From: Trichocoleus sp. FACHB-40
Lineage (GTDB): Bacteria > Cyanobacteriota > Cyanobacteriia > Cyanobacteriales > FACHB-T130
Assembly: GCF_014695915.1 (NCBI RefSeq)
Contig: NZ_JACJPF010000041.1
Span: 62,001-126,000 of the forward strand
Length of the DNA stretch: 64,000 nt
Reading direction: 5' to 3'
The notes below the pieces were generated by a model. The model did no database searches and was not told the origin of the DNA. It saw only the letters and a list, made by a program, of their open reading frames with translations. Within the stretch, counting starts at the first letter, position 1. The number at the start of each line of letters is the position of its first letter. Positions 9,505 through 51,254 of the stretch are shown piece after piece. A program made the position numbers and the translations under genes.

Positions 9505-12500
9505 CTAAATTTCGCTCGGCTGCGGCGCATCTAAAAAGCCGATTTGAATCAGGTATGAGAAGTAGGTATGAAGGAATTTGTCATCTACTGGTGGACAACA
9601 GATTGAAGCGCTGGCAAGTTTATCGAGAGTATTCTGGAAATTGGTATCTTCCACAGAATTTGATTTTGGTGTTGAGGACTCCGCTTTACTGGCACGATTA
9701 GATAAGCTTTGCTCAAATAAAGGTAGGAGCGAAGAGACTGCATTATCCTGAGAATGTTCGGCATAATTTGAGAGTTTGGTTTGCCATTCTGCATAGGAAA
9801 TTTGCTGAATTGAATAGCCAAATGAACTCAGCCACTTGAAAATATCGCTGATTAGGATTGGGTGTGGACTTGATAAATGGAAGTCTTCACCGAGTAAGTT
9901 TTTTTGCTGCGATAGATGCAGAATGGCTTGGCTCACATAATCAACTGGAGCCGTCCTTAATATTCCATTTTCGGCGGGCGCGCTTTTGAGTTGAATATAG
10001 CCTTTGATAGTTCTGCACAGATGATCGTTTGGATTACAAGCACCAGTTTGGCTGTGTCCTGATACACTACCAATTCTGTAAATAGAGGCGGGAAGACCTT
10101 GCGATCGCGCACTCATTATCAACTGTTCCGCAACCCATTTAGTCTGAGCATAGCCACTCTTTGGTACATCATTGTCCGCTGATAATAGAGTAGCAAGAGT
10201 TGAAACATAATGCACTGGCTTCACTTTGGTTTGACAAGCCAATCTCAAGATTTCCTGCGTCCCCAAAACATTAGGTGTTTTGAGCATTGAGTAGGGATAA
10301 ACAAGATTTATTGCCGCCCCATTGTGATAAATCACATCGATTTTATTTGCCAAAAGTTGAAATTGCTCCTGGGAAAGACCTAACAAGGGTTGGGATAAAT
10401 CTCCTAAGACGGGAATGATTCTAGAGCTGAGAGATTCATTCCAAATTAAATAGGATTCCAGGTTGCTTTGAAGTCTCTTTTTGGCGGATTCGATATTAGG
10501 AGAACGAACTAGACAATAAATGTCTGCTTGGGTTTGTTGTAGCAGTTCGTAAAGTAGAAAAGCTCCCAAAAAGCCCGTTGCTCCCGTTAAAAAAATACAA
10601 GTTGGATCAGTTAAATCCTTAACAGGTGCAGTATTGGGGCGGATGGCGGAATCTAGGATGGCATCAGCAAGTAACTGTTCAATAGTAATTTCCTTGCTAG
10701 TGGTGGTGGGGTTTGCCGGAAGGGGCGTTTCCAGGGGACTTAGCTTTGGTTGTGAGTCAGAAGGGGTGTAGACTGGCGATCGCATAGTCTGACAGTGGGT
10801 GATGAGCGATCGCAATCTCTCCTGAAAATCTTCCGCTAAACTCTCAATTGTCACCCGGCGATGAACGGCCTCGCTGTACGTCCAATTCAGCCGCAGCTGA
10901 CCTCCTACAACAATCCCATTGATATCTAACAGGTAACGCCGATGCCCTCTTGGACTGCGGACAAGACCGCTGGATTCCTCGGCTAGAGCCAACAGCGATG
11001 ATTGAAATACTTGATCGGATTGACCTAAGTAGTTGAAAATCACTTCCGCTTGAGGCATTTGCAACTGCAAAGGCTTTTCCAGATTTTTGCTTAGATAGCG
11101 CAGCACGCCATAGCCAAGGCCCCGATTTGGGATACTACGCAGTTGCTTTTTGATAGCCTGCAAAGCATCTCCAGGGTTAGAAGCTTCCTCTAAGCTCAGC
11201 CGCACTGGGAAGATGGTAGTAAACCAGCCGACTGTACGCGATAAGTTTACATCGTCGAAAATTTCTTCGCGCCCGTGACCTTCCAAATCCACTAATAACG
11301 AATCCCCTGTCCACTGTCCGAAGGCTTGCACCAGCGCTGTGAGCAACACATCATTGATCTGAGTTCCATAAGCTGCTGGTACCTGCTGCAACAAAGCTTG
11401 AGTTTCTTCTTGAGAGAGGGTTACGGACACTGTGCTAACTGACGCTACAGTGTTGGCACCTCCAGAAAAATCCACTGGTAGAGGACAAACTGGTTTCCGT
11501 AGCTGGGTCAACCAATAATTCTCCTCTTGCTGGAGTTCTGATGAGTGGGCGTATTCCTGCAATCGTTGCGCCCACTGCTGGAAAGAAGTTGTTTTGGGTG
11601 GCAGTTGGATCGTCTTACCCCGGCTAATTTGCTCATAAGCTGTCTGAAGATCCTCTAGTAAAATCCGCCAGGAGACACCATCAACAGCTAAGTGGTGGAT
11701 GACAATCAACAGGCGATTCCGCTGGTTGTTACCTAAGGTAAAAAAGACAACTCTGACCAACGGCCCTTGTGATAGGTTCAAGCTAGTTTGTACTTCGGCG
11801 GCGGCGGATTCTAAGGCGGCTTTTTGTGCATCGGGGGAGTGCGCCGACAAATCTAGGCAGGTAAATGGTACTACCTCATTGAAACTAGCATTGACTTGTT
11901 GAGGAGCGTCGCCTTCTTGAATAAAACGCAGACGGAGTGCGTCGTGATGTCTAAGCAAATGCTGCACGACTATTTGCAAAAGCTGCGGGTCTAAATCGGG
12001 CGGCACTTTTAACAAGACAGCTTGGTTGCTGTGGTGCGGATCGAGAGGATTGTCTTCAAAAAACCAGTGCTGAATAGGTGTCAGAGGCACCTGTCCAATT
12101 ACCATCCCCTGTTCTGCCTGGATAGTATGGGTAGTACCAGTAAGAGCAGCTAATTGGGCAATTGTCGGAGCCTCGAAAAGCTGCTTGGGAGTTAGGGCTA
12201 GTCCGGCTTTGTTGGCTTTGGCGATTACCTGAATATTGAGGATAGAATCGCCGCCTAAATCGAAAAAGTTGTCGTGGATGCCCACTCGCTCAACGCGCAG
12301 GATTTGCGCCCAGATGCCAGCTAGGAGCTTTTCAACCGGGGTTTTAGCGGCCGTATATTCTGGGAGCTGTTCGCTAGTGGAATTCGGGGCTGGCAATTGC
12401 TGGCGATTTACTTTGCCGTTGGGCAGCAGTGGCAAAGCCAACAGCCGCACAAAAGCTGATGGGATCATGTATTCCGGCAGCTTTTCTTGCAAGAAGTGGC

Positions 12501-15246
12501 GCAGGTTGCTAATTGTGAATGTCGATTCTGGGGACGGGACGAAATAAGCGACTATGCGGCGATCGCTTACTACATCTTCTCGCGCCACAACTACAGTTTC
12601 CCGCACACCTGGGTATTGTTTTAACACCGCCTCGATTTCTTCGAGTTCTATCCGGAAACCCCGAATTTTTACTTGGTGGTCAATTCGCCCCAAAAATTCC
12701 AGGTTCTCATCTGGCAAGAAACGCGCCAAATCGCCAGTTTTGTAAAGCTGTGTATCAGCTTTAAAGGGGTTGTTGATAAATTTTTGGGCAGTTAGTTCGG
12801 GGCGATTTAAGTAGCCGCGAGCTAAGCCAGCACCGCCGATATATATTTCTCCCGGTACGCCAATTGGTACGGGACGAAGATCGGAGTTTAGTAGATAAAT
12901 CTGCGTGTTGGTAATAGGACGACCGATGGGAAGGCGAATTAATTCTGGTGACTGGCAATGGTAGACGCTGCTCCAAACTGTGCCTTCGGTTGGGCCATAT
13001 TCGTTAAACAAAGATGTTTTTGGCAGCTGTTCTAGGTGACGGGAAACTAATTCTTTTGGACAAAGTTCGCCGGCGACGATGACAGTACGCAGTGAAACAA
13101 GCTGTTCTGATTGAGCTTGTTCTAACAGGAGAGCGTAAAGAGATGGCAGACTTAAGAAATGGGAAATACGATGTTGACTAATTAAACCGAGGATTTGTGA
13201 CAGATCCCGTTGTACACCTTCCTGGGGAAGAACGAGCATTCCTCCTTGAGTAATAGTCCAGAATATACCCGCGATTGAACTATCAAAGGCAAATGATGAA
13301 AGCAGCAAGAAGCGATCGCATGGTTCCCGATAGTAAGCTAAACGCGCACTGGTTGAGTGAACTAAATTTTGATGCGCGATCGCTACTCCTTTCGGTTTGC
13401 CTGTGGAACCGGAGGTATAAATAACATAAGCTAAGTTATCGGACTTGGCTTCATGGGTAAGATTTTCGTCGCTTTCTAAGGCAATATTTTCCCAATCTGC
13501 ATCTAAGCAAATTACACTAGCTTGATGTTTGGGTAATTCAACTAACCGCTGTTGAGTCAACAGCACTGATACCTGAGCATCCTCTAACATGAAGGCTAGA
13601 CGCTCTTGGGGATACGCTGGATCGAGGGGTATGTAGGCTCCGCCAGCTTTGAGAATGCCCAAAATCCCAACAATCATTTCTAGCGATCGCTCTACACAGA
13701 TTCCTACTAATACCTCTGGTTTTATGCCTTGTTTCTGTAGGTAATGAGCTAATTTGTTCGCCCGTTGATTCAGTTCGCGATAGGTTAATTCTTGAGTATC
13801 AAACACAACTGCGATGTTGTCTGGTGTTTGATTTACTTGGGTTTCAAAAAGCTGGTGGATGCACTGGTTTTGTGAGTAATCAGCTTGGGTATTGTTGAAG
13901 TCAACCAAAAGTTGCTGTCGTTCGCGATCGCTTAATATTTCTAACTGAGCTATCGATGCGTCAGGGTTGTTAGTAACGCTTTCTAACAATTTCACAAATT
14001 GCTCTGATAAGCGTTTGATATCTTCTAGAGCGAATAAGTTACTATCGTAGTGGAATTCTGCAATTAAATCGTCCCTACGAATACAAGAAAGTTTGATTTT
14101 GAATCGTTCTATACAGGCATACTCTTTGTTAATTGTAAATACTTTGTTCTCGTTTGAATCTCGCTCAAATTCTTCAACCTCAAAAGTAAACGGGAAAAAA
14201 GGTGTATCTAAATGATTTACCTGTTGTTGCCAAGTAAAATATTCTTGCCATTTATAGCCTTCATTGACAGAATTATCAACCAGTTCTAAAACTTTGCTGA
14301 AAGGTAAATTCTCTGACAAATGAGTTTGAATGGGTAAATATTTAGCAAACAACCCTAGTGCTTGCTGTAAATCCTCATATTTCCGCCCTTCATATGCTGT
14401 CCCGACGGTAATATCTGGATAGTCAATCAAACGCCAGAGGAGAACTTGCCAGCAAGCCAATAAAAATTCTGAAACCGAAGTATCATTACCCACTAAGGTT
14501 TCTATAGCGGCTATCAAATTTGGAGGAATAGCTGCTGTCAAAACTTGCGGCTGAAATTCTATATTTTTAGAAATTTCATTCTCATAACTCAGCTTTAAGT
14601 TTGACAACCCCGATAAATCTTTTTGATGCCAATATGCTCTTTCTAACTCTCCTTCTCCCTCAAGTAACTCATTCTGCCATTCAGCAATATCTGCATATTG
14701 CAGCGGTTCATCTGAGAATTTCTCGCCACGCAAACAAACTGCATAGGCATCATTGATTTCCTGTACTAAATTTCTCAATGTCACCCTATCTGCAAGCATA
14801 GCTGGTAAGCTTACCAGCAATATATACTTATTTGACGATAGGGAAATCAGAGATAGATGTAAAAGGAAATCTTTTTCAAAATTTAACGGAAAACCTAGAG
14901 TTTCATTAAAAAGCGCCTCAACTTTCTCATCTTGTGTAGCGGGAGGTAACTCGCTTAAATCGTAGTAATTGATTGAGGGTGTAACACTATGAGTAATTAC
15001 CTGGAAAGGAAGCTCCATCCCGGATAGAGAACGGAAATTCGTGCGAAGAATTTCATGTCGATTTACTACCTCTTGTAAGGCACTTTTTAAGATGTTTTTA
15101 TCCAGCCCGTGGTGCAATAAGGTACATTGGACACGATAAGGTAGGCTAGAGTCAATTTGCTGTAATGACCATAGATGAGCTTGCTGAGGGGAAAGCCGAT
15201 AACCTTCCACGATTTCATCTGGCATTTTTGTGTCTACGCTTTGCAT
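9505..15246 (-). CDS. NRPS: interface(degenerate C)-A(His-like?)-PCP-E-thioester reductase
   Basis: The 1913-residue terminal module starts with an RBS AAGGAG before ATG 15246. Residues 1-430 are a condensation-like domain in which HHxxxDG is replaced by LPAMLAD (about 149), so it cannot condense and probably docks the hydroxylase encoded just upstream. The A domain spans about 480-960. Its specificity residues read by eye are D-S-A-S-I-A-E-V-W-K, nearest to the bacitracin His code DSELTAEVCK that I know (6 of 10); this is tentative. PCP carries GGDSIL (about 996). An E domain (1055-1500) has intact HHLAVDGVSW. The C-terminal reductase (1545-1913) has the NAD(P)H loop TGATGFLGA and the YxxxK pair in YAQTK, so the peptide should leave as aldehyde or alcohol without a thioesterase. 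Hydroxylase (15270-16316) and aminotransferase (7733-9139) neighbours fit a final beta-hydroxy, reduced, aminated residue. Confidence 0.95.
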   Translation of the reverse strand: MQSVDTKMPDEIVEGYRLSPQQAHLWSLQQIDSSLPYRVQCTLLHHGLDKNILKSALQEVVNRHEILRTNFRSLSGMELPFQVITHSVTPSINYYDLSELPPATQDEKVEALFNETLGFPLNFEKDFLLHLSLISLSSNKYILLVSLPAMLADRVTLRNLVQEINDAYAVCLRGEKFSDEPLQYADIAEWQNELLEGEGELERAYWHQKDLSGLSNLKLSYENEISKNIEFQPQVLTAAIPPNLIAAIETLVGNDTSVSEFLLACWQVLLWRLIDYPDITVGTAYEGRKYEDLQQALGLFAKYLPIQTHLSENLPFSKVLELVDNSVNEGYKWQEYFTWQQQVNHLDTPFFPFTFEVEEFERDSNENKVFTINKEYACIERFKIKLSCIRRDDLIAEFHYDSNLFALEDIKRLSEQFVKLLESVTNNPDASIAQLEILSDRERQQLLVDFNNTQADYSQNQCIHQLFETQVNQTPDNIAVVFDTQELTYRELNQRANKLAHYLQKQGIKPEVLVGICVERSLEMIVGILGILKAGGAYIPLDPAYPQERLAFMLEDAQVSVLLTQQRLVELPKHQASVICLDADWENIALESDENLTHEAKSDNLAYVIYTSGSTGKPKGVAIAHQNLVHSTSARLAYYREPCDRFLLLSSFAFDSSIAGIFWTITQGGMLVLPQEGVQRDLSQILGLISQHRISHFLSLPSLYALLLEQAQSEQLVSLRTVIVAGELCPKELVSRHLEQLPKTSLFNEYGPTEGTVWSSVYHCQSPELIRLPIGRPITNTQIYLLNSDLRPVPIGVPGEIYIGGAGLARGYLNRPELTAQKFINNPFKADTQLYKTGDLARFLPDENLEFLGRIDHQVKIRGFRIELEEIEAVLKQYPGVRETVVVAREDVVSDRRIVAYFVPSPESTFTISNLRHFLQEKLPEYMIPSAFVRLLALPLLPNGKVNRQQLPAPNSTSEQLPEYTAAKTPVEKLLAGIWAQILRVERVGIHDNFFDLGGDSILNIQVIAKANKAGLALTPKQLFEAPTIAQLAALTGTTHTIQAEQGMVIGQVPLTPIQHWFFEDNPLDPHHSNQAVLLKVPPDLDPQLLQIVVQHLLRHHDALRLRFIQEGDAPQQVNASFNEVVPFTCLDLSAHSPDAQKAALESAAAEVQTSLNLSQGPLVRVVFFTLGNNQRNRLLIVIHHLAVDGVSWRILLEDLQTAYEQISRGKTIQLPPKTTSFQQWAQRLQEYAHSSELQQEENYWLTQLRKPVCPLPVDFSGGANTVASVSTVSVTLSQEETQALLQQVPAAYGTQINDVLLTALVQAFGQWTGDSLLVDLEGHGREEIFDDVNLSRTVGWFTTIFPVRLSLEEASNPGDALQAIKKQLRSIPNRGLGYGVLRYLSKNLEKPLQLQMPQAEVIFNYLGQSDQVFQSSLLALAEESSGLVRSPRGHRRYLLDINGIVVGGQLRLNWTYSEAVHRRVTIESLAEDFQERLRSLITHCQTMRSPVYTPSDSQPKLSPLETPLPANPTTTSKEITIEQLLADAILDSAIRPNTAPVKDLTDPTCIFLTGATGFLGAFLLYELLQQTQADIYCLVRSPNIESAKKRLQSNLESYLIWNESLSSRIIPVLGDLSQPLLGLSQEQFQLLANKIDVIYHNGAAINLVYPYSMLKTPNVLGTQEILRLACQTKVKPVHYVSTLATLLSADNDVPKSGYAQTKWVAEQLIMSARSQGLPASIYRIGSVSGHSQTGACNPNDHLCRTIKGYIQLKSAPAENGILRTAPVDYVSQAILHLSQQKNLLGEDFHLSSPHPILISDIFKWLSSFGYSIQQISYAEWQTKLSNYAEHSQDNAVSSLLPLFEQSLSNRASKAESSTPKSNSVEDTNFQNTLDKLASASICCPPVDDKFLHTYFSYLIQIGFLDAPQPSEI

Positions 15247-15269
15247 CTCTTTAACTCCTTTTGTGTACC

Positions 15270-16316
15270 CTATATTTCTGAATTAGTAAATGGTTCAGCC
15301 ATTCCCACTACAACTTTGCGCGAACCTACAAAAGGTGTACGACTATGAGCGACTGACATATTATCTAACATCAATACGTCGCCTTCTTGCCAGGGGAAAA
15401 TTACTCTTTCTTGCAGATAAGCTTCGCGAAGTTCATCCAATACAGATATTTCAATTGAAGAGCCATCACCGTAATAAGTATTATTGGGAAGGTCTTCTTC
15501 TTTAAACTCCGCCAACAATGTTTCGCGCATCGTTGGCTCTAGTGTAGAAACATGGAAAAAAGTAGCATGATTAAACCAGATATTTTCTCCGGTTTGGGGG
15601 TGTTTGGCAACAGTTTGTCGGACTTGGCGAGTCCTGAGACGATCACCACTTTTCCACTCAAATTCAATCCCATTACGACGGCAATATTCCTCTACCACAG
15701 TTTTATCTTCAGTTTGAAAAACTGTCTGCCAACTTAATCCAAATCCATCATTATAGTTTCGGACATACAAAACTTTTTTTTCGATAAAACGCTCTCTAAT
15801 TTTTGGATTGATGCGCTGAAAAATATTTCGACAGTCAGCAATAGGGGTTTCTCCTCCCTGCTGCGGAGCTATAAGACAGCCAAAATATATTTTTAGAGGC
15901 CAAGTTAGCCAATAGGTTCCTTCGTTGTGTAAAAAGATGCTTTGTTCGGCGGGGTAATCAGTTGAAGTATATATTTTGCCGCTGATTTCATGGCGTGGCG
16001 ATGAGCGATCGCGATATTCCAGCAGTTCTCCGGTGGAAGTGGTTTTGATAAACTGGTTAAACAAATCCGTTGAATTTATATTAAAATTCCGAAAAAGTAA
16101 GGCTCTGTAGTTTAGTAACAGGGTTTTAACCGTTTCCTGGTTACTTGTAGCCCACTCTAATAAATTGACACCTAGGACGGCTGGTTTTACAAGTAGAGGA
16201 ATGCTTTTACCAGGGAGTAGATACTCGGTTTCAATTAACTCATTTTGGGAGAGGTGGAAGGGTTTGCGAGTAATCGACCTTTTATTAAAGGGAATTTGGG
16301 AGTTTATTTTTTTCAT
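15270..16316 (-). CDS. TauD/SyrP-like Fe(II)/2-oxoglutarate amino acid beta-hydroxylase (third copy)
   Basis: The protein has 348 residues. The Fe-binding facial triad is visible as HNE (about residue 128, in IFLHNEGTY) and a distal His in VAHSR (about 320), followed by Arg in GSRKVVVGM that binds 2-oxoglutarate. The HxE form and the FLHNE context are those of SyrP-like hydroxylases acting on carrier-bound Asp or His, not of taurine dioxygenase. It lies 23 bases before the terminal NRPS gene and 24 after the Thr NRPS gene. By analogy with known NRPS siderophore hydroxylases it should act on the aminoacyl-PCP of the following module. If that module loads His, the product is beta-hydroxyhistidine, a known siderophore ligand. 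It is similar along its length to the copies at 30768-31814 and at the C-terminus of 43596-51254. Confidence 0.92.
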   Translation of the reverse strand: MKKINSQIPFNKRSITRKPFHLSQNELIETEYLLPGKSIPLLVKPAVLGVNLLEWATSNQETVKTLLLNYRALLFRNFNINSTDLFNQFIKTTSTGELLEYRDRSSPRHEISGKIYTSTDYPAEQSIFLHNEGTYWLTWPLKIYFGCLIAPQQGGETPIADCRNIFQRINPKIRERFIEKKVLYVRNYNDGFGLSWQTVFQTEDKTVVEEYCRRNGIEFEWKSGDRLRTRQVRQTVAKHPQTGENIWFNHATFFHVSTLEPTMRETLLAEFKEEDLPNNTYYGDGSSIEISVLDELREAYLQERVIFPWQEGDVLMLDNMSVAHSRTPFVGSRKVVVGMAEPFTNSEI

Positions 16317-16340
16317 ACTTTATTACGCTCCGGAATATTT

Positions 16341-19300
16341 TCAACCGCGAATTGCTTTTCTTTTGGCGGTTTTTAGCTTTTGTAAGCTGGTTGATTCTAT
16401 TTGCTCTTGTTTGAGCAACAAGGATGGTTTTTTATGTTCCTGCGCTTGGTAAGATTCAGTTGGTTCGTTGGCTAAAGTGGTAAGAGTTTGAAAATAAGTA
16501 TGACCAATCTCTTCAATTTGCTGCTGGGATAATTCAGAGGTATGGCACTTTAAGAAAAGTTTGATTTGAGATGTAGTCACATTCAAACCAAAATCAGCTA
16601 ATAAGGCGAAATCGGTCATTTCAAAGTGCATATCATCTAAAACCTGCAAATCGGTGAATGATTTTAGACGTTGGTAAACATGGAAATGAGTGAAGTTAAA
16701 ACAAGTTTCAAAGAGCTGCTGTCTTCCTAAATCTTTCTGAATTTGAGCCATTGGATACCATCGGAAAGGTAATAATTCGCGCTCAGCTGCAAAAGCTTCG
16801 CGAATCAGGTCAAGCCAAGTACCTCCGGAAAGTTTCATCCGAAATGGCAAAGGAGTAAGGAAAAGTCCTAGAGAGCGATCGCTACCACTGTCCGGGCGAC
16901 CATTTGCTGAAAGTATTGTTAAAATGTCCGATTGACCGCTCAAAGTTGCGATCACTTTCAGGTGTGCGGCTACCAAAACGCTTTTGAGTGGAACAGCAGC
17001 AACCTGAGTCAGCTGCTTGAGCTTTTGGGAAATCTCTGCGCTGACTGGAATCTCTAGTACGCGAACCGCCTCTGTATTTGTTTGGGAAACAGAAGTGCGA
17101 GGTAATGTTGTCTTTGTGCTGTCACTGAGTTTTTGAATCCAATACCGCTTACATTCCTCCGACCGAAGCGCATTTTTCTGCAAAGCTACAAAATTTCGGA
17201 AAGCGATCGCTTGGTTCGGTAACGGCGGCGCAATTTCTTTACCCAGAAGGAAGAAATATTGCTCAAATAACTCTGTGAGTAACAATGCTACACTCCAACC
17301 GTCGAGAATCACATGGTGGAAGCTCAGCGTAAATTGAAAGGTAGCTTCACCACGGCGATGAACCTGAAAACGCAGTAGAGGAGGACAATTCCAATCAAAA
17401 TTCTGTTTCTTTTCCGCTTCCATCCAACCAGCGATCGCTTCCTCTTGCTCGGCGGGTGAGAGGTGGCGCAAGTCTTCTATCTGCAAAGGAATCTCCACCA
17501 TCCGATGCACCAGTTGCAGGGGTTCGGAGAAGTTTGTCAGATTGAAAGAAGTACGCAGTACAGGATGACGGGTTAACAATTGCTCGATAGCCGCCGTCAA
17601 AACCTGAAGGTCGAGAGGCGTTTGCAGGTGGAAGCTGAAGATGTCATGAAAGAGAGTAGAATCCTGGCTATAGGCACTGTGGAACAGCATCCCCATCTGA
17701 AGCATCGCCAGGGGATAGGCATCTTCCACATTTTCCGGCAAACTTAACCGATCTGCTGAGGAAATCAGGCTAAATGGTTCTGTGTCTGATATAGGTAAGC
17801 TGGATTCTGTCCGATTGGCGTGTTGAGCCAGTTCGCCTATCGTTTGATAACGGAATAGTTGTTCGATAGAAAAATCTATCCCGTTTTTCTGAGCTTGAGT
17901 GCGAACTTGGATACTCCGAATCGAGTCTCCCCCCAAGTTAAAAAAGTTATCATGGATGCCCACAGACTGCACGCCCAGAACTTCAGCCCAGATTTCGGTA
18001 AGTACCTGTTCAACAAAGTTGCGCCCAGCGACAAAGGCGACATCCCGCTCAGGTGTGGCGACGGGGGTTGGCAATGCCCGCCGATCTACCTTACCATTCG
18101 GCGTTAGAGGTATGGCTTCGAGTAGTACGAAGGCGGCGGGTATCATGTAGTTGGGCAATTGAGCTAGAAAGCTACGCAGTTCGCTGATAGTAATCGCTTG
18201 TTCTGGGTAAGGGACAACATAAGCTACCAAACGTTGTTCCCCAGAATTTTCGCCTTGCGTTACAACCAGCCCTTCAGAAACAGCCGGGTGTTGAGTCAAC
18301 ACCGCCTCAATTTCTCCTAGCTCAATCCGGAAGCCGCGAATTTTGACTTGGTCGTCAATTCGTCCTAAGTATTCAATGTCTCCATTGGCTAGATAACGTG
18401 CTAAGTCGCCAGTTTTGTAAAGGCGTTCCGATTGTGGATTGTGGATTTTGAAGGGATTGGAGATGAACCGTTCCGAAGTCAGATCGCTACGGTTGAGATA
18501 TCCCCGCGCCAAACCCGCGCCACCAACGTACATCTCGCCCGGAACTCCGATAGGAACTGGCTGCTGATGACTATCGAGTATGTAGATTTGCAAATCTGGA
18601 ATTGGACAACCAATTACACTTCCGGAAACCAGATTCAGATCGGCAGCTGTCAGCAAACGATAGGTTACGTGTACGGTGGTTTCTGTAATGCCGTACATAT
18701 TGACTAGCTGAGGAAACTGGTCGCCATGACGGTCAAACCAAGGCTTCAAGCTTTGGAGGTTTAAAGCTTCCCCACCAAAAATTACCAAACGCAAAGACAA
18801 CGCCTGTGTCGGATTAGCCAATTCTTCTGCTCGAATTAGTTGGCGGAAGGCTGAGGGAGTTTGGTTAAGGACAGTTACCTGCTGCTTACACAATAAGTCG
18901 TAAAACAATTCCGGCGAACGACTCACCCAGTAAGGGACTACCACCAACCGCCCACCAAAAAGGAGAGCGCCCCAAAGTTCCCAAACAGAGAAATCGAAAG
19001 CATAGGAGTGAAAGAGCGTCCACACATCGCGATCGCTAAATTGATACCACGACTGCACCGCGTCAAACAGCCGGACGACATTCCCGTGCGGGATTAATAC
19101 GCCCTTCGGCTGTCCTGTAGAGCCGGAGGTGTAGATAACATAAGCCAGGTTGTCAGTTGTCGTCTGACTGACTGGATTAGCGTCGCTTTCTTGGCCAATG
19201 CCCCATGTATCCAAACAGACTACTTTAGCTTTAGATGTCGGTAAAGCTTCTACCAACGACTGCTGAGTTAACAGCACTGGCACTTGCGAGTCTTCTAGCA

Positions 19301-22749: not shown

Positions 22750-22831
22750 CTAAAGACACTTCCTTTTCAAGCTAAAACTACAAAATTTATAAGACTTACA
22801 GGAAAAATCTACGTTGAGGGGCGCGGCGTTT

Positions 22832-22882
22832 GAGGTAATAAAAACCCAACGTTAATATTAGGTTTGTTGGGTCTTATTACCT
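22832..22882. repeat. Hairpin repeat in the NRPS operon gap
   Basis: GAGGTAATAA plus AACCCAAC on the left pairs with GTTGGGT plus TTATTACCTC on the right, with one bulge and a 14-base loop. It lies between the beta-Ala NRPS gene and the decarboxylase gene and could act as an attenuating or mRNA-stabilising hairpin. The AACCCAAC core resembles other dispersed repeats in this window. Confidence 0.65.
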
Positions 22883-37345: not shown

Positions 37346-37469
37346 CGTTTACGTCTATCTCCTGCCTAAAAATGTCAGTTCTGCCGTTCATTAATCTTCA
37401 CCAATTACCTTAAGCGCACGCCAAGGCGATTATTAAAAAAAGGCAGCTTTCATAAATAAAATCGGATTG

Positions 37470-38720: not shown

Positions 38721-38784
38721 CTAATTCTTCTCCTTGGGCAATTGGGTCGCTGTGAGAGGGAATAACAAAAGCTTAATTAGGCTG

Positions 38785-38850
38785 GTTAATGTTGGGTTTC
38801 GTTAGTACAATTACTGATTAGTATTGGGACTCCTTCCTCAACCCAACCTA
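38785..38850. repeat. Dispersed GTTGGGTT/AACCCAAC repeat
   Basis: GTTGGGTTTCGTTA (38791-38804) and CCTCAACCCAACCTAC (about 38837-38852) form an inverted repeat with 8-base arms. This is the widespread cyanobacterial 'ggttgggttgagg...aacccaac' type. It fills the gap between the lone C-domain gene and the Dab aminotransferase. Confidence 0.6.
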
Positions 38851-38853
38851 CAA

Positions 38854-40299: not shown

Positions 40300-40327
40300 A
40301 CCTGACTTGAGCTGTGAAGCTGTCTTC

Positions 40328-40440
40328 CCGGAAACTGAAGTTCCGGCTGAAAGCTAAAACCCATTGAAATGGGTTGTTTTTGCGTTTTCAGTCAGTTTCC
40401 ACTGACTTGAGCTTTGCGCTGGGAAATCAATTTCCCAGCG
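40328..40440. repeat. Cluster of four hairpins in the NRPS operon gap
   Basis: Four consecutive inverted repeats fill the gap between the Asp NRPS gene and the lone C gene. The arms are CCGGAA/TTCCGG (40328-40346), AACCCATT/AATGGGTT (40358-40375, followed by GTTTTT on the plus strand), AGTCAGT/ACTGACT (40390-40407) and CGCTGGGAAA/TTTCCCAGCG (40417-40440). This looks like a dispersed cyanobacterial palindromic element inserted in the operon. On the minus-strand mRNA it would be a highly structured spacer. Confidence 0.8.
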
Positions 40441-40453
40441 TTGAGTGCGTAAG

Positions 40454-43400: not shown

Positions 43401-43606
43401 GGAATCTTCATCCCAGGTAGGCGGTGGAAGGTTGTCCGCAGAATCTCATGTTGATTGACGACTTGCTCTAAAGCTGTTTTTAAGACATCTACTTTCAGAT
43501 TGCCTTCTAGAAGAAGGGCGCAGTAAGCAGCGCTATCTTGTTGTAACAACCAAAGACGCTTCTGTTGAGGAGAAAGCCGAAAGCCGCCGAGGGTTTTACT
43601 GTGCAT
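40454..43606 (-). CDS. NRPS: interface(degenerate C)-A(Asp)-PCP
   Basis: This protein has 1050 residues and its ATG overlaps the stop of the upstream loading NRPS by 11 bases. Residues 1-430 are a C-like domain with the active-site motif replaced by LPALCAD (about 137); it matches the first domains of the two other NRPS proteins that follow a TauD. The A domain (about 440-920) reads D-L-T-K-V-G-H-V-G-K, the Asp code. PCP has GGHSLLAT (about 972). No E domain is present, so L-configured aspartate is expected. The hydroxylase is the TauD domain fused to the end of the upstream protein. The last 60 residues are a short linker without a recognisable domain. Confidence 0.95.
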   Translation of the reverse strand: MHSKTLGGFRLSPQQKRLWLLQQDSAAYCALLLEGNLKVDVLKTALEQVVNQHEILRTTFHRLPGMKIPVMVVADSSVPLWQEIDLSDQEPQQQEAKITALFQEAKRANFDLEQVSLHLSLLKLSAEKYILLISLPALCADSWTLQKLVEKISLAYAGDFSTEEVQYVQFSEWQHQLLEEEDATGKEYWEQQDFSSLDRIKLPFERNLKTSEFAIDCVSLTLDSKAVAKLEKSDIALDICLLASWQVLLWRLTGEENIVGAAVDGREFETLHSVLGLCTKWLPIKSCLAVKLRFQEVLELVSQALREASEWQEYFVWEPFDGVTSKAQFAVGFEFEQSVLKRFGAGVSFSLLNFYSCIERFKIKLVCTREKADFYYDSNLFSAETIQRLVKQFQTLFASATENPEVAISRLEILQPSDRAQLLAHNNTQTDYPEQQCIHHLFEAQSAQTPDNIAVVFEDQQLTYRELNARANKIAHHLQMLGVKPEVVVGLCLERSLDMVVGMLGILKAGGAYLPLDPALPQERLDFMSQVAQIVLTKRRFCGKSYEGKTTVCLDEDWEAAQQSNANPTSEANSKNLVYVLFTSGSTGKPKPVAIEHQQLLNYLRAILDKLNLPTGASFALVSTFAADLGNTVIFPALCTGGCLHIVSAERATDSAALADYFGRYPIDCLKIVPSHLAALLASSHSAQILPQRLVLGGEALSWQLIEQIQQHKPECQILNHYGPTEATVGVLTYQVDKADRPDSETVPLGRPLANTQVYVLDRHLQLVPVGVSGELYIGGAGLARGYLNREDLTALRFISNPFSDTEARLYKTGDLVRYLPDGNLEFLGRTDDQVKIRGFRIELGEIETLLSQDPSVRQVVILAREDQPGDRRLVAYVVPHPGQVTNTNDLRHFLQQKLPEYMVPSVVILKALPLTANGKVDRGALPVPDQIRPELGDFVAPGTSTEQAIAKIWAEVLGIEQVGIHDNFFELGGHSLLATLVISKLRQAFQVELPLRDFFEMPTIAGVAKKIEEAKDKGAYLNEPEIVAVSRTAHRVKLSSLKDGDPLTL

Positions 43607-46600
43607 TTGCTTTCACCATTGCTTTGTATTTAATTTCTGCGCTACGCATTAATTCCCCCAATGCCACTACAATCTTCCGGGAACCTACATAAGGGTTGCG
43701 ACTGTGTGCGGCGAGCATATTGTCTAGCATCAATACGTCTCCTTGTTGCCAAGGGAAAGCGATCGCGGCTTCTTGATAAACCGCTCGAATTTCTGCTATT
43801 ACCGAGTCTTCAATGGGCGAACCATCTCCGTAATAAACGTGACGTGGCAACTGGTCTTCTCCGAACAAGGATAATAAGGATTCGCGGACTGCTGGATCTA
43901 GGCATGAGGCATGGTGCAACTGCAACTGATTAAAAAACACCAACTCATTCGTCTTCGGATGCTTAGCCACTGCTGGACGAACCAGGCGAGTTCTCAAACC
44001 ATTGCCCGAAAGCCACTCAAAAGCGATGCCCGCTTGATGGCAATATTCCTCTACTACAGCTTTATCGTTGGTGTGAAAGAATTCTTGCCAACTTACGTCA
44101 AAGTTCTCGGTATAGTTGCGAACATACATTAGTTGCTTTTGTTGAAATTTTTCTCGCAGCCTGGGGTCAAGCAACTGGTAAACTTTTCGACAGTCCACGA
44201 TTGGCGTTTCGCCGCCCTGCTGCGCTGGTTGCACGCAGAAGAACCAGATTTTCAAGGGCCAGCAATGCAGATGGGAACTTTCGTTATGGAACAAAATAGG
44301 TTGTTCCGGCGGATAAGGTGTTGAGCCGTAAACTTTGCCGCTGACTTCCACACGCGGTAAGTCTCCATACTCAGCGAACAATTCTGTGGCAATTGCCTGA
44401 GCAAAACTTTCAAATTCAAGCACAGAAGCGATGCGGAAGTTGCGGAAAAGAATCGCACCGTGATGCAGCAATTTTGTTTCTAGGAATTCCCGGTTGCTCT
44501 TAGCCCAGTCGATGAGATCGATATCGTCAACGTTTGGCTTGATCACCAGAGGGAGGGTTTCTTCAGTACCTAAAAACTCTGTTTGAATTAATTTCTCCGG
44601 TAAGAAACTAACAGCCTTGGGCTGGATGTTCATCAACTGCTTGAGCTTGGATTCTTTGCGCTCTTTTTTGGAAGCAGCTTGTTGAGTTCTTTCCACGACG
44701 TTAAGCATTTCTAAGGTGTTTATTCGGGCATCTGGTTGAGCCACAATGGACTCTAGTAGCGTTTCTAAATGACCTGACATCCGAGCGATCGCGCTTTTCT
44801 CGAAAAGGTCGGTTCTATAGTTCCAAGTGCCAACAATTCCCTGCTCGGTTTCGCTCACAAGCAAAGCCAAATCAAACTTCGCCGTGCCACTGTCGATATC
44901 CAACAGTTTCAAGCTTAAGCCTGGAAGCTCTAAGGCTGGCATCGGGGCATTTTGCAGAACAAATAATATTTGAAATAGGGGTGTGTGGTTTCCTTTGCGC
45001 TCCGGCCGCAGTGCCTCTACCAGCTTTGCGAAGGGTAGATCCTGGTGGGCGTATGCTTGTAGCGCTACCTCACGCACTCGCCCTAGCAATTCTCGAAAAC
45101 TTGGGTTGCCAGCTAGATTAGTCCGCAAGACTAGCAAGTTGACAAAAAAACCAATTAGTGGTTCTGTTTCAGCTCGGTTACGGTTAGCAACATCAGTGCC
45201 TACAACGATATCTTCTAGACCAGTGTAACGCTGTAACAGTACCTCAAATGCTGCCAGCAAGGTCATAAATAAGGTGACACCTTCCTGGCGCGAAAGTGTC
45301 TTGAGCGCTTGTGATAGGACAGAGGAGACGAGGAAGGAATGAGTGGCACCCTGATTAGTTAATGAAGCTGGTCGCTTGGTGCCAGGTAACTCCAACACGG
45401 GCAATCCCGCCAGCTGCTTTTTCCAATAAGCAAGCTGAGATTCTAAGACTTCAAGATGCGATCGCTCCTGCTGCCAAACGGCAAAGTCTGCATACTGAAT
45501 TGACAGGTCGGGGAGTGGTGAGGGAACGCCTGCACAGAAAGCTTTGTATAAAGCTGCTAACTCTCCAATCAGCACTCCAATCGACCAAGCATCAAAGATA
45601 ATGTGGTGCATGGTCAATAGCAGCACATATTCTGTCTCATCGAGTTGCAATAAAGTGCCACGCAGCAACATTCCCTGTGTTAGGTCAAAGGGGCGCTGCG
45701 CCTCTTGGGTGGCTAGTCGCTGAACTTCATTGTCCTGCTCTATTGTGGGCAACCGGCGCAGGTCTACCACAGGTAGGGTTAAGGTTAAGCTGGGAGCGAT
45801 CGCTTGAAATGGTTGTCCATCCACCGTTACAAAAACCGTTCGCAAGGCTTCGTGACGCTTGATAATTTCGTTAAAACTCTGCTCCAACGCCGCTACATTC
45901 AGCGAACCACTCAGTCGCACGGCGGCGGGAATGTTATGAACAGCAGTACCAGGCTGCAATTGCTCTAGAAACCACAATCTAGCTTGAGCAAAGGATAGGG
46001 GCAAATTGATTGTCCGTGAAACGCGCTCAATAGGCATCTCCAGTTTTTGCCCCAGCTTCATCGTCGCCTCGATGCGATGGGAGAGTTCGCTGACTGTCGG
46101 CGACTCAAACAAACAGCGCACAGGTAGTTCTATCTCCAAGACTTGCCGCAACTGAGAGACCACCTGAGTAGCTAGTAAGGAGTGTCCGCCTAATTCAAAG
46201 AAGTTGTCATAGATACCTACTTGTTCCAGTCCCAGAATCTTCGCCCAAATTCCGGCGACTATTTCTTCTAAGTAGGTGCGCGCAGCCACAAAATCTGAGT
46301 GTTGCCGTCTTGTCTCCAGTGCTTGCAACGCCTGACGATCAACCTTACCGTTGGGTGTCCTCGGTAGTTCCGACAGCATCGCAAACGTTGCTGGAATCAT
46401 GTATTCTGGCAATTTCAAGAAGCGACGCAGGCAACTAATTGTCGGTGTCTCCTCTGTCGGGACAACACAAGCTACCAGGTACTTATCGCCCGGTTTATCT
46501 TCTTTTACTAGAACTACAGCTTCTTTGACCATTGGGTGTTGTCTGAGAGCTACCTCAATTTCTCCCAACTCGATGCGGAAGCCGCGAATTTTTACCTGAT

Positions 46601-49600
46601 GGTCACTTCGCCCGATGTATTCAATATCACCATTAGGCAAGTAGCGGGCGATATCGCCAGTCTTGTACAACCGAGTTTTGGGTTCATCAGTGAAGGAATG
46701 CAGGATGAATTTTTCAGCTGTTAAATCGGGACGGTTCAGGTATCCTCTAGCTAATCCGGCACCGCCGATGTAGAGTTCGCCCGGAACTCCAATCGGCACA
46801 GGTTGCAAATGAGCGTCTAGTAAATAAACCTGTGTATTAGCGATGGGGCGACCAATAGAAAGGCTGCTTTGTTGATTTGTGCAGCAAGTAACGTCAGCAG
46901 AAACTTCTGAGGAACCGTAAAGGTTTAAGAGAATGCTCTCTGGCAGATTTTCTCGAAAGCGCTGCCATAAATCGACACTTAACGCTTCTCCACTGACCAC
47001 CCAAAACTTCAATTTGGGCAAGCGTTGGATGTTGCTGTCGGTATCTAATAGCACACGCAGCAAGGAGGGTACGAGGACAATCCGCGTAATGCGATCGCGT
47101 TCCAGGGTTTCGATAAATTGTTGCGGATCTTTGATAACTCGGTCGGGAATAATCACTGTCCGCACGCCTTGTAGTAAGGGGCCGAAAATTTCCCACACTG
47201 AGTCTACAAAGCTTAAAGATGTCTTCTGGCAACAAACCTCTCCCGGCATAAAGGGATAGGTTTCCCACATCCAATGAAAGCGATTAACAGCACCTCGATG
47301 TAAACCCAGGACTCCCTTGGGCATTCCGGTAGAGCCAGAGGTATAGATCACATAAGCTAAGTTGTCAGCTGTAGTCTTGCTGACTGGATTCTCCTTACTG
47401 TGTTGGCTGTAATCCCATGCGTCTATGCAGACTACCTGCATCTCATGTTGCGGAAGCCGTTCGACTAGATGCTGAGTTGTCAGTAACACTGACACTTGAC
47501 AATCCTGCAAGATGAAATTCAATCGCTCCTGTGGATAGGCAGGGTCTAGCGGTACATAGGCTCCACCCGCCTTGAGAATACCCAAAAGCCCTACGACCAT
47601 AGAAAGCGATCGCTCTACATATATCCCTACCTGCACTTCCGTACTAACGCCCAAACTTCGCAAATGGTGTGCTAGTTGATTGGCGCGTTGGTTTAGCTCT
47701 TGATAGGTCAATTGCTGGTCTTGACAGACGGCAACGGTATCTGGCGATCGCTCTACTTGAGCCTCAAATAGTTCGTGGATACATTGTTTGGGGTAATCAG
47801 TTTGAGTACGATTCCACTCGACTAGCAGTTGATCTCGTTCAACTACCTTTAGTAAAGGCAATTCCGAGAGATGTTGGTCAGGATTGGCAACTATCCCTTC
47901 TAACAAAGTTTGGAAATGCCCTAACATTCGACTAATGGTAGTGACATCAAACAAATCAGTGTTGTACTCTACAAACCCGGTTAATCCTGATTGGGATTCC
48001 TCCATTGATAGCGTCAAATCAAACTTGGCTGTTTCATTATCAATCTCTTCAATATCCAAAGTTAACCCCGAAATTTCTGCGGTTAACTTTAGAGCAGGTT
48101 GAAGAATAAACATTACCTGAAACAGAAAATTATGGCTCAGGTTCCGCTCCAGGTGCAGCGACTCCACCAGTTGCTCGAAGGATAAATCTTGATGGGCATA
48201 AGCACCCAGTGCAACTTCGCGTACCCGTCGCAGAAGCTCCCGAAAACTGGGATTTCCAGCGAGGTCAGTACGCAACACCAAGGTGTTGACAAAAAAGCCA
48301 ATTAACTGTTCAAATTCAACCCGATTGCGGTTGGCAATCGGCGAACCTATAATAATATCTTCCTGCCCTGTATATCGATGTACCAACGTTTTAAAAGCTG
48401 CCAACAAAGCCATAAATAAGGTGACATTTTCCTTCTGGCTTAGTAGCTTAATTGCCTCAGTAAGCGCTTTGGGCAAGATAAACTTTTGTCGCGCACCTTT
48501 GAAGGTTTGAATAGCTGGTCGGGGACGGTCGGTGGGCAAATTCAGGACGGGAAGGTTTCCGGCTAATTGTTGCGTCCAGTAGTTTAGCCCAGACGCTAAA
48601 ATTTCACCTTGTAGCAACTGTCGTTGCCAATAATAAAAATCTACATATTGAATCGGAAGTTTGGGGAGTGGGGAGGTTTTTTCAGTGGCAAAAGCTGTAT
48701 AAATTTCTATCAGTTCTTTGAGTAATACTCCCATTGACCAACCATCTGAGATAATGTGGTGCAAGGTGAGAATTAGAATGTATTCTGTTTCCGTAAGGTG
48801 CAGAAGTTTAGCGACAAAAAGGCGATCGCGTGACAAGTCGAAGGGAATTTTAGCTGCTTCAATGGTGAGGCGTTGTGCTTCGGTTTCCCGTTCAGTCTGA
48901 GATAGCGATCGCAAGTCTATCTTTGGCAAGTTTAAGCTAAGCGTGGGCGCGATCGCTTGCACGGGTTGACCGTCCACAACTCTAATATTTGTCCGCAAAA
49001 TTTCGTGGCGATGGATAATTTCGTTTAAACTTTGTTCTAATGCTGTTACATTCAACTCACCTTTGAGGTGAATGGCTATAGGAATGTTATAAGCGAGGTT
49101 ATTCGGTTCCAACTGATGGACTAACCACAGTTGTTGTTGAGAAAAGGAAAGTGGATGTCCTGAAGCAGGCTTTTCAATGGGAAAAAGCAGCGACGCACGA
49201 GAAGCTTCCCCTGTCAGTTGACTGAGGATATGCGCCACCAGTTGAGTAATGCACAAGCCTTCAAATATGTCTGATACAGATACAATAACTTCTAGGTCGC
49301 TCTCAATCCGATTTTTGAGCGCAAAAACTCTTAAAGAGTCGAGTCCTAAACTACTAAGAGGCTGTTGAGGATTGATTTGGGATGGCGGAACTCCCAAGAC
49401 TTGGGCGACTACTTCCTGAAGATAAGTTGTCAGAGCTGATGCTTGTTCTTCGGACGCGATCGCAACTAAAGATTCACGGGTCAGCCTAATTTCTTTCCCT
49501 AAATGGGTACTGTTTAAAATGCTGCTTCCGGCAACCTCCAAGGTGTCTGCCAAAAATGCTGCACGAGTAGCGCGACGTTGAATTTTACCGCTAGAAGTTT

Positions 49601-51254
49601 TGGGAATACTGCCCGCTTTAATTAAAATTACTGCATAAACTTGCACCTGATGTTCTTCAGTTATTGCCTGACGAATTGCGGCAATAACTTCTTCAACATT
49701 CGGTTTAGCGCGAAACTCCAACTCTTGGACGACTACCAGCTGTTCTTCGCCCTTTACTTCCACTGAAAAGGCTGCACCACTACCCAAACGCAACGCTGGA
49801 TGGCTGCGTTCTGCTGTCAGTTCAATGTCTTGCGGGTAGAGGTTGCGACCCCGGATAATAATTAAATCTTTGGCTCGACCTGTAACAAATAGTTCGCCAT
49901 TTTGCAAAAACCCTAAGTCCCCAGTCCGCAAAAACGGCCCTTTACCTGTATCTGAAAGATAAGCGTGAAATGTTTGCTCTGTCTCAAAAGGGCGATTCCA
50001 ATAGCCATGACAAATACTAGGGCCAGAAACCCAAATTTCGCCAATTTCATCCTCAGAACAACTGGTTAAGGTTTCCGGATTGGCAATAAGAATCTGCTGT
50101 TCTGGTAAAGTTTGACCGCAACTAACTAGACGCTGGGAATTCTGGTCATCAGGTTGAGCGTCAATTATACGGTTGCTTAAAAAAGCAGTTTTTTGAACAG
50201 TTTTGGTTATCGGTAACGCCGCCTTAGCACCACCAGAAACCATCAGAGTTGCCTCTGCCATTCCGTAACACGGATAAAAGGACTCTGGACGAAAACCGCA
50301 CTCAGCAAAGGTGAGGGCAAAACGCTCTAAAGTTTCCTGACGAATTGGTTCAGCACCGTTAAAAGCAACACTCCAACTGGACAAGTCTAGGGTTGACCGT
50401 TGTTCGGGGGTAATTTTCTGAATGCACAGTTCGTAGGCAAAGTTAGGAGCGCCGCTGGTGGTTGCCCGATAATGGGAAATTACCTGTAGCCAGCGGTAAG
50501 GAGACTGGAGGAATGAAGCTGGCGACATCATAATGCAGGGGAAACCGCCATACAGGGCTTGCAGTACGCAGCCGATCAGTCCCATGTCGTGGTAAACAGG
50601 TAGCCAGGAGACATATATACTGCTGGGCGAATTTCCCATGAATTGGTAAGTCATGGTGGCGTTGTGTAGCAAGTTGCTATGACTTACCATTACGCCTTTT
50701 GGCGTTCCAGTAGAACCGGAAGTGTATTGTAAAAACGCTAGAGTATCCCCTTCAATCAAAGGCTCTTGCCAAGTGGTTTCCATTTCGGGGGTGAGGTTAT
50801 CGGTAGCGAGCCACTTGAGGACTGGGTTAGTTTTGATAATTAGGGATTGTACTTTGGAGAGGATGGCTGTTGTCGTCAGCGCGATCGCGGCTTGAGCATC
50901 TGTCAACACCGACAAAATTCTGGGGGTGTTGCGTTGGTTGCGCGGTGGGTAAGCGGGAACAGCAATTACTCCCGCGTACAAACAACCTAAAAACGCAGCA
51001 ATATAATCTAAACCTGGTGGGTAAAGCAGTAAGGCTCTTTCGCCGCTTAAACCCAAAGTCTGAAGTTGGGATGCGATCGCTCGTGCTTTTCCGTCCAAGT
51101 CTCGATAAGTTAGGCTAATTTCCTGAGTTTCGCCTTCTTGGAGGAAGGTAAAAGCTATTTGCTCCGGCTGTGTAGCACTTCTGTAGCGCAGTAACTCTAC
51201 TAAAGTTGAACAGCTGTGGGGGATTCTGGGAAAGTTATTAAAAGCTTGAGCCAT
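43596..51254 (-). CDS. Loading NRPS: FAAL-ACP-C-A(beta-Ala-like)-PCP-C-TauD hydroxylase
   Basis: This first and largest protein has 2552 residues. A fatty acyl-AMP ligase (1-575, LQYTSGSTGTPKGVMVSH at about 178) should activate a free fatty acid and pass it to the ACP (LGLDSLRV, about 638). C1 (690-1130) is LCL with HHIISDGW. A1 (about 1170-1650) has a shifted core FVDSVWE and the code V-D-W-L-V-S-L-A-D-K, close to the beta-alanine code. PCP has GGHSLLAT (about 1688). C2 (1750-2190) has HHIIFDAW, Ala for Gly in the motif. Residues 2208-2552 are a fused SyrP/TauD-type hydroxylase with HNE (about 2322), distal His in AAHSR (about 2515) and the Arg of GSRKIVVAL. The hydroxylase should act on Asp loaded by the next protein. 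No strong ribosome binding site is seen before ATG 51254. This is the likely first gene of the operon. Confidence 0.96.
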   Translation of the reverse strand: MAQAFNNFPRIPHSCSTLVELLRYRSATQPEQIAFTFLQEGETQEISLTYRDLDGKARAIASQLQTLGLSGERALLLYPPGLDYIAAFLGCLYAGVIAVPAYPPRNQRNTPRILSVLTDAQAAIALTTTAILSKVQSLIIKTNPVLKWLATDNLTPEMETTWQEPLIEGDTLAFLQYTSGSTGTPKGVMVSHSNLLHNATMTYQFMGNSPSSIYVSWLPVYHDMGLIGCVLQALYGGFPCIMMSPASFLQSPYRWLQVISHYRATTSGAPNFAYELCIQKITPEQRSTLDLSSWSVAFNGAEPIRQETLERFALTFAECGFRPESFYPCYGMAEATLMVSGGAKAALPITKTVQKTAFLSNRIIDAQPDDQNSQRLVSCGQTLPEQQILIANPETLTSCSEDEIGEIWVSGPSICHGYWNRPFETEQTFHAYLSDTGKGPFLRTGDLGFLQNGELFVTGRAKDLIIIRGRNLYPQDIELTAERSHPALRLGSGAAFSVEVKGEEQLVVVQELEFRAKPNVEEVIAAIRQAITEEHQVQVYAVILIKAGSIPKTSSGKIQRRATRAAFLADTLEVAGSSILNSTHLGKEIRLTRESLVAIASEEQASALTTYLQEVVAQVLGVPPSQINPQQPLSSLGLDSLRVFALKNRIESDLEVIVSVSDIFEGLCITQLVAHILSQLTGEASRASLLFPIEKPASGHPLSFSQQQLWLVHQLEPNNLAYNIPIAIHLKGELNVTALEQSLNEIIHRHEILRTNIRVVDGQPVQAIAPTLSLNLPKIDLRSLSQTERETEAQRLTIEAAKIPFDLSRDRLFVAKLLHLTETEYILILTLHHIISDGWSMGVLLKELIEIYTAFATEKTSPLPKLPIQYVDFYYWQRQLLQGEILASGLNYWTQQLAGNLPVLNLPTDRPRPAIQTFKGARQKFILPKALTEAIKLLSQKENVTLFMALLAAFKTLVHRYTGQEDIIIGSPIANRNRVEFEQLIGFFVNTLVLRTDLAGNPSFRELLRRVREVALGAYAHQDLSFEQLVESLHLERNLSHNFLFQVMFILQPALKLTAEISGLTLDIEEIDNETAKFDLTLSMEESQSGLTGFVEYNTDLFDVTTISRMLGHFQTLLEGIVANPDQHLSELPLLKVVERDQLLVEWNRTQTDYPKQCIHELFEAQVERSPDTVAVCQDQQLTYQELNQRANQLAHHLRSLGVSTEVQVGIYVERSLSMVVGLLGILKAGGAYVPLDPAYPQERLNFILQDCQVSVLLTTQHLVERLPQHEMQVVCIDAWDYSQHSKENPVSKTTADNLAYVIYTSGSTGMPKGVLGLHRGAVNRFHWMWETYPFMPGEVCCQKTSLSFVDSVWEIFGPLLQGVRTVIIPDRVIKDPQQFIETLERDRITRIVLVPSLLRVLLDTDSNIQRLPKLKFWVVSGEALSVDLWQRFRENLPESILLNLYGSSEVSADVTCCTNQQSSLSIGRPIANTQVYLLDAHLQPVPIGVPGELYIGGAGLARGYLNRPDLTAEKFILHSFTDEPKTRLYKTGDIARYLPNGDIEYIGRSDHQVKIRGFRIELGEIEVALRQHPMVKEAVVLVKEDKPGDKYLVACVVPTEETPTISCLRRFLKLPEYMIPATFAMLSELPRTPNGKVDRQALQALETRRQHSDFVAARTYLEEIVAGIWAKILGLEQVGIYDNFFELGGHSLLATQVVSQLRQVLEIELPVRCLFESPTVSELSHRIEATMKLGQKLEMPIERVSRTINLPLSFAQARLWFLEQLQPGTAVHNIPAAVRLSGSLNVAALEQSFNEIIKRHEALRTVFVTVDGQPFQAIAPSLTLTLPVVDLRRLPTIEQDNEVQRLATQEAQRPFDLTQGMLLRGTLLQLDETEYVLLLTMHHIIFDAWSIGVLIGELAALYKAFCAGVPSPLPDLSIQYADFAVWQQERSHLEVLESQLAYWKKQLAGLPVLELPGTKRPASLTNQGATHSFLVSSVLSQALKTLSRQEGVTLFMTLLAAFEVLLQRYTGLEDIVVGTDVANRNRAETEPLIGFFVNLLVLRTNLAGNPSFRELLGRVREVALQAYAHQDLPFAKLVEALRPERKGNHTPLFQILFVLQNAPMPALELPGLSLKLLDIDSGTAKFDLALLVSETEQGIVGTWNYRTDLFEKSAIARMSGHLETLLESIVAQPDARINTLEMLNVVERTQQAASKKERKESKLKQLMNIQPKAVSFLPEKLIQTEFLGTEETLPLVIKPNVDDIDLIDWAKSNREFLETKLLHHGAILFRNFRIASVLEFESFAQAIATELFAEYGDLPRVEVSGKVYGSTPYPPEQPILFHNESSHLHCWPLKIWFFCVQPAQQGGETPIVDCRKVYQLLDPRLREKFQQKQLMYVRNYTENFDVSWQEFFHTNDKAVVEEYCHQAGIAFEWLSGNGLRTRLVRPAVAKHPKTNELVFFNQLQLHHASCLDPAVRESLLSLFGEDQLPRHVYYGDGSPIEDSVIAEIRAVYQEAAIAFPWQQGDVLMLDNMLAAHSRNPYVGSRKIVVALGELMRSAEIKYKAMVKANAQ

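Follow-up and report, generated by a model that had tools for sequence, protein, structure and literature searches.

An NRPS cluster of Trichocoleus sp. FACHB-40 with three cyanochelin-type units in which inactive condensation-fold domains probably dock TauD-type beta-hydroxylases

Three times within one NRPS cluster of the cyanobacterium Trichocoleus sp. FACHB-40, a TauD-type hydroxylase is followed by a domain that resembles a condensation (C) domain with a changed active site. What does such a domain do, and why does it stand beside an oxygenase? We addressed these questions in the window, by which we mean the whole stretch of 64,000 nucleotides that was analysed (contig NZ_JACJPF010000041.1 of assembly GCF_014695915.1, positions 62,001 to 126,000, forward strand). 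Very probably the cluster encodes a cyanochelin-type lipopeptide siderophore NRPS, in which the degenerate domain, called here the interface (I) domain, docks the TauD enzyme for beta-hydroxylation of a T-bound residue.

The large NRPS cluster in the window lies on the minus strand, and its gene order is given here in the direction of synthesis. It opens with a single ORF (43596-51254) of the order FAAL-ACP-C-A-T-C-TauD, in which the FAAL starter, the ACP, a C domain, an A domain coded VDWVVSLAD (probably for beta-alanine) and a T domain occupy 46335-51254 and precede the first of the three blocks. An I-A-T protein (40454-43606), a free C domain (38854-40299), a diaminobutyrate (Dab) transaminase (37470-38720; EctB model, above cut-off) and a half-C-A-T-E-C protein (31814-37345) come next. 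They are followed by a stand-alone TauD ORF (30768-31814), an I-A-T-E protein (26189-30763), a C-A-T protein (22893-26192), a PanP-type aspartate 1-decarboxylase for the supply of beta-alanine (21073-22749; above the NCBIfam cut-off), a C-A-T-C protein (16341-21110), a second stand-alone TauD ORF (15270-16316) and an I-A-T-E-reductase protein (9505-15246) whose terminal thioester reductase domain lies at 9532-10596 (TIGR01746). A class III aminotransferase resembling glutamate-semialdehyde aminomutase (7733-9142) is found after the terminal reductase. Beside the cluster, on the plus strand, a TonB-dependent receptor and a PepSY_TM protein (52194-56193) provide an iron-uptake context. The cluster has the features of the cyanochelin type, namely a beta-hydroxylase-bearing NRPS, a lipid start, reductive release and a TonB uptake gene.

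The class III aminotransferase gene is kept in many related clusters and its product may aminate a released aldehyde. On the opposite strand, 5479-7656 encodes a member of the penicillin amidase family whose best NCBIfam match is the PvdQ acylase, far below the cut-off of that model. Three adjoining ORFs in 1044-3183 match no Pfam family significantly; by eye the last resembles PIWI, and it may be a piece of a broken Argonaute gene. The condensation step for Dab is split (31814-40299), with a free full C domain, the Dab transaminase gene and then a module whose A domain, coded DIWE[MI][TS]ADD, is preceded by no more than the C-lobe half of a C domain. The same split order is seen in ten loci, the window together with L003, L026, L053, L056, L066, L069, L081, L085 and L087, one of the ten being cut by a contig end; their transaminases are 69-78% identical.

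A preliminary description of this DNA had reported three copies of a block made up, in sequence, of C, TauD, degenerate C, A and T, with the TauD enzyme fused in 43596-51254 and free at 30768-31814 and 15270-16316. Each hydroxylase was found in its place and the order held in all three blocks, but the third block is coded for His, so that the series is no plain repeat of Asp units. In the first block, again on the minus strand like all that follow, a condensing C domain (44724-46010; HHIIFDA) precedes the TauD-type Fe(II)/2OG beta-hydroxylase (43620-44669), which forms the C-terminus of the FAAL-ACP-C-A-T-C protein and has the HNE and distal AHSR residues; then come the interface domain I1 (42386-43585), an A domain coded DLTKVGHVG, for Asp (40838-42223), and a T domain (40580-40804), with no E domain. 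The second block consists of a condensing C domain (31970-33241; HHLLLDG), the free hydroxylase of an Asp-associated group (30768-31814; TauD at 30771-31814), the interface domain I2 (29483-30742), an A domain coded DLTKIGHVG, for Asp (27923-29317), a T domain of the GGDS type (27665-27886) and an E domain (26324-27610). The third has a condensing C domain of a divergent branch (16437-17723; HHVILDG), a free hydroxylase (15270-16316; TauD at 15273-16316), the interface domain I3 (13954-15204), an A domain coded DSALIAEVW, for His (12403-13788), a T domain (12148-12369) and an E domain (10807-12093), which the reductase follows. HHxxxD is intact in all three C domains that precede TauD, as are the metal-binding residues in the hydroxylases of the cluster. 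In the C-domain tree the upstream C domain of the third block and one Nostoc relative (L004, 8571-9869) stand apart on a long branch.

The interface domains have lost the residues that a condensing domain uses. In an alignment with the window's other C and E domains, HHxxxDG falls in register with PALCADS in I1, PALCADR in I2 and PAMLADR in I3: both His residues are gone, the Asp is kept and the Gly is replaced. The active-site strings LPALCAD, LPALCAD and LPAMLAD had been read correctly, and they are the sole LPAxxAD matches in window ORFs of at least 100 aa. Across 123 interface domains neither His is kept in any, and the Asp is retained in all 123. The exact LPAxxAD string, which had been put forward as a diagnostic motif, is specific, being present in 66/123 interface domains as against 0/316 other C and E domains, but as a strict diagnostic it had to be abandoned, since it covers just those 66 members; the looser L[PS][AS]xx[AGST]D covers 105 of the 123. 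The three domains of the window are 45-46% identical to one another and 26-29% identical to LCL domains. In a C-superfamily tree of 105 domains, 36 interface domains form a single clade (SH-aLRT 97), separate from C and E. Two divergent I domains that follow fused TauD enzymes in siderophore-type clusters of Janthinobacterium and Azospirillum join that clade (SH-aLRT 98); they are its only proteobacterial rows and neither is a characterised type member. The Janthinobacterium domain reads LPALVAD. The window domains therefore do not group with ordinary LCL domains, a grouping that the preliminary description had named as counting against its reading: their HHxxxDG is not intact and they are placed outside the LCL clade. 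The family is present in Cyanobacteria, Acidobacteriota, Chloroflexota, Nitrospirota and KSB1, and its conserved positions are kept family-wide. An AlphaFold2 model of I2 (mean pLDDT 91.5) has a complete C fold and matches C-domain structures with Foldseek E values down to 6e-33 and VIA Z scores of 36-41, with the X domains of glycopeptide NRPSs among the structural matches. No PDB entry named as an interface domain was among the sequence matches, and the absence of one from the fold list carries no weight. The degenerate domain would make no peptide bond.

Its association with TauD is close to obligate. We took an unbiased census of 386 cyanobacterial genomes in which the best few candidates were scored per genome, so that the counts are lower bounds, and in which the scores of the interface profile split into those of at least 391 bits and those of 290 or below. 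There were at least 54 interface domains in at least 25 of the 386 genomes, and all 25 genomes have TauD. A TauD gene lies directly upstream of 51 of the 54 that were scored (at least 54 in total), with a median gap of 67 bp, and domains of the LPAxxAD type that lack a neighbouring hydroxylase, whose abundance was the second outcome named as refuting in the preliminary description, are rare. Read in the reverse direction, 51 of 55 scored TauD matches have an interface domain next to them, three of the four exceptions being low-scoring. An earlier set of 123 interface domains from named genomes and plasmids, which is biased because it was partly fetched by TauD, has TauD within 3.5 kb upstream in 109 cases. 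The blocks marked by LPAxxAD are not a product of chance, since none of the 316 other C and E domains matches the motif and the layout recurs in those 51 of 54 cases. In relatives of the cluster the upstream C domains keep HHxxxD in 93/93 checked.

Some modules of the C-I-A-T type carry no tailoring gene. The interface domain comes straight after C in L026, L027, L057, L073, L075, L078, L081, L084, L085, L087, L089, L091 (4331), L155, L156, L158 and L159; in these a hydroxylase may act in trans. For loci of the first census that have no adjacent TauD, a TauD gene was found elsewhere in 13/13 genomes checked, and in 4 of the 13 it lies 11-21 kb away, on a contig bearing the same number as the one with the locus. 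We considered the TauD-less loci as counter-examples and, given that all 13 genomes have TauD, treat them as unexplained rather than as refuting the association. HHxxxDA replaces HHxxxDG in 22 of the 93 C domains before TauD, among them that of the window at 44724-46010, and in 6 of 11 C domains that precede TauD-less interface domains. In two loci a class III (Dab-type) aminotransferase gene stands between TauD and I (L036, 8641-9876; L174, 2018-3316).

The arrangement is of a known kind, because the characterised cyanochelin B cluster (Leptolyngbya sp. NIES-3755 plasmid 2, AP017310; loci L001 and L002) has the same layout; the window is a three-unit case of it. In both, a fused TauD precedes a non-epimerising Asp module and a free TauD precedes an epimerising one, the modules open with a His-less C-fold domain (LPALCADT and LPSLCADA in cyanochelin B) and release is reductive. 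The cyanochelin B product contains L-threo beta-hydroxy-Asp from the fused unit and D-threo beta-hydroxy-Asp from the free unit with epimerisation (PMC12628792). Unlike the window, with its three units of which one is coded for His, cyanochelin B has two units and none for His, and it has a PKS/thiazoline start and Phe, Gly and Ser residues; its interface domains are 35-40% identical to I2. Reitz et al. (2019, PNAS) put forward the interface domain, as cited in PMC12230676 and PMC12971057, and antiSMASH 8 has profiles for them and for IbetaH and TbetaH (PMC12230676). In proteobacterial siderophore clusters the interface domain is likewise a His-less member of the C superfamily placed right after a TauD that ends the upstream protein. 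The proteobacterial free TauD enzymes examined precede no interface domain, whereas the free and the fused enzymes of cyanobacteria both do. CyanoBH_Asp1 and CyanoBH_Asp2, the metallophore-linked beta-hydroxylases of cyanochelin clusters (PMC12971057), are described for Asp only; compared by description, the third TauD of the window differs in sitting with His-coded modules. The X domain of glycopeptide NRPSs (4tx2, 4tx3, 6m7l) is a further dead C fold that recruits tailoring enzymes, and the I2 model aligns with it at Z of about 37, although the X domain recruits P450s in the last module while the I domain of the window opens its module and has an Fe/2OG enzyme as partner.

Distance correlations over 57 complete units are 0.68 for I and TauD, 0.55 for TauD and A, 0.51 for I and A, and 0.30 for I and C. 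The co-inherited unit looks like TauD-I-A rather than C-TauD, even where TauD is fused to C, because the upstream C domain correlates weakly with I and TauD (0.30). The C domain travelling with the hydroxylase as a C-[TauD] block, the unit in which the preliminary description had cast the repeat, was set aside on the same value.

We propose the following order of events. The upstream, catalytically intact C domain would receive the growing chain, and T would be charged with Asp or His by the A domain. Standing in for a C domain on the A-T module, the interface domain would hold TauD beside the aminoacyl-T, so that TauD could beta-hydroxylate the T-bound residue before condensation. Where an E domain is present it would epimerise the residue, and the upstream C domain would then join the chain to that residue. 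The fused TauD would serve the L-Asp module, the first free TauD the Asp module with epimerisation and the second free TauD, most likely, the His module with epimerisation.

Could the degenerate domain instead be a leftover whose only role is structural, that of keeping the C-A platform rigid, with the hydroxylase finding its T domain unaided and the adjacency reflecting cassette inheritance? The domain does occupy the position where a normal C domain would pack on A, and the distances of I, TauD and A all correlate. In free units alone the I-TauD value (0.60) is not above that for I-A (0.65), so the coevolution signal may be one of cassette inheritance only and contact is left unproven. The proteobacterial stand-alone TbetaH_Asp enzymes, moreover, are described in PMC10391617 as partners of a T(E) domain, and the proteobacterial free enzymes examined have no I domain directly downstream. 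We nevertheless regard such a leftover as improbable: a full C fold with its own clade and with conserved positions kept across five phyla, Acidobacteriota and KSB1 included, is hardly ever seen apart from an oxygenase gene, and from a mere spacer one would sooner expect truncation, of the kind that the half-C of the Dab modules in the same clusters shows. That the domain is a modified C domain with other catalysis, such as hydrolytic gating, dehydration or an epimerase-like reaction, seems very improbable indeed. Members of the C superfamily with altered chemistry are among the structures listed and the Asp of the motif is invariant; yet both His residues are lost in 123/123, modules expected to epimerise have an E domain of their own further on, and the cyanochelin B product shows only beta-hydroxylation at the corresponding modules (PMC12628792). 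Docking of the hydroxylase by the interface domain, the role that the preliminary description had also given it, remains our preferred account and is supported by these findings.

A narrower doubt concerns the residue in the third unit. Read by alignment in order of synthesis, the A codes are VDWVVSLAD, DLTKVGHVG, DIWEMTADD, DLTKIGHVG, VDWIVSLAD, DFWNIGMVH and DSALIAEVW. Codes for Asp and Thr are listed in PMC12283262, as is DSALIAEVWK, a His code accepting the beta-hydroxylated residue. The code of the third block matches the listed His/beta-hydroxy-His code exactly; it is for His and not Asp. The hydroxylases of the window fall into three groups of a tree built from 115 TauD enzymes. The fused enzyme (43620-44669), like an IbetaH_Asp hydroxylase, is in a fused clade of 46 rows (support 99) that includes two proteobacterial fused enzymes, the first free enzyme is in a free-Asp grade, and the second is in a clade of 20 rows (99) that holds all nine His-coded units together with some that are Asn- or Asp-coded; both free enzymes are separate from a proteobacterial stand-alone clade of six rows (98) and, unlike TbetaH_Asp enzymes, precede an interface domain. 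It is unlikely, though less so than the alternatives above, that the substrate of the third hydroxylase is Asn, Asp or some residue other than His, or that the third A domain loads something else. Close relatives of this hydroxylase (65-68%) serve the Asn-like codes DATKVGEVG and DLTKIGEVG; against this stand the exact match of the A code and the sharing of one hydroxylase clade by the nine His-coded units. Because of the His code and of that clade, the third unit probably makes beta-hydroxy-His, which would give the product three bidentate ligands. No report of beta-hydroxy-His in a cyanobacterial siderophore was found in the literature searched.

For the other residues, the DIWE-type code is presumably that of Dab, an assignment supported by the EctB-model transaminase in the cluster, and the VDW-type code we take to be that of beta-alanine, as supported by the PanP decarboxylase. 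VDWVVSLAD itself was not found in the literature searched. The PanP gene (21073-22749) and two A domains coded VDW[VI]VSLAD (at 46335 and 23280) point to beta-alanine residues. For the whole chain we predict acyl-(beta-Ala)-(beta-OH-Asp)-Dab-(beta-OH-Asp)-(beta-Ala)-Thr-(beta-OH-His), with two beta-hydroxy-Asp and one beta-hydroxy-His as the predicted chelators. Its release is predicted to be reductive, with three bidentate iron-binding residues on the chain, perhaps followed by transamination, and the product is most likely an iron-binding peptide.

TauD does not always fill the slot that separates C from the interface domain. Adjacent TauD is absent for 3 of the 54 scored interface domains of the census and for several in a further sample from the order, of 391 genomes. 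In L153 and L157 the slot has an AsnB-like amidotransferase and a gene of the PF05118 Asp/Asn-hydroxylase family with no TauD, in L151 a methyltransferase and an AsnB-like gene, in L154 and L168 paired WelO5-family genes with no TauD, and in L160 a WelO5-family pair plus TauD; L164 is also among the loci where other genes replace or accompany TauD. HxG, which we take to be the halogenase-type active site of WelO5, is present in five of the six WelO5-family proteins (L154, L168, L160). The L157 genome, which is 99% complete, has one interface domain and no siderophore-type TauD, its best TauD match reaching only 4.6e-27. In the interface-domain tree the PF05118-linked pair is nested (100) among TauD-linked domains and the WelO5-linked domains are in three places, which would mean repeated swaps of partner, perhaps even from hydroxylase to halogenase. 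This gene neighbourhood suggests that the dock is kept while the guest enzyme changes; we hold the odds to be even that the interface domain serves as a dock for carrier-acting Fe/2OG tailoring enzymes at large and not for TauD in particular.

In Trichocoleus, then, three dead copies of a C domain most likely hold an iron enzyme in place to hydroxylate the next amino acid. With two Asp units and one predicted His unit, the cluster would allow Asp-directed and His-directed interface/hydroxylase pairs to be compared, and exchanged, within a single assembly line. Should the interface domain prove to take enzymes of more than one family, peptide engineering would gain a portable docking part for putting a hydroxyl or a halogen on a residue of choice, and genome mining that links the domain with TauD only would overlook modified residues.
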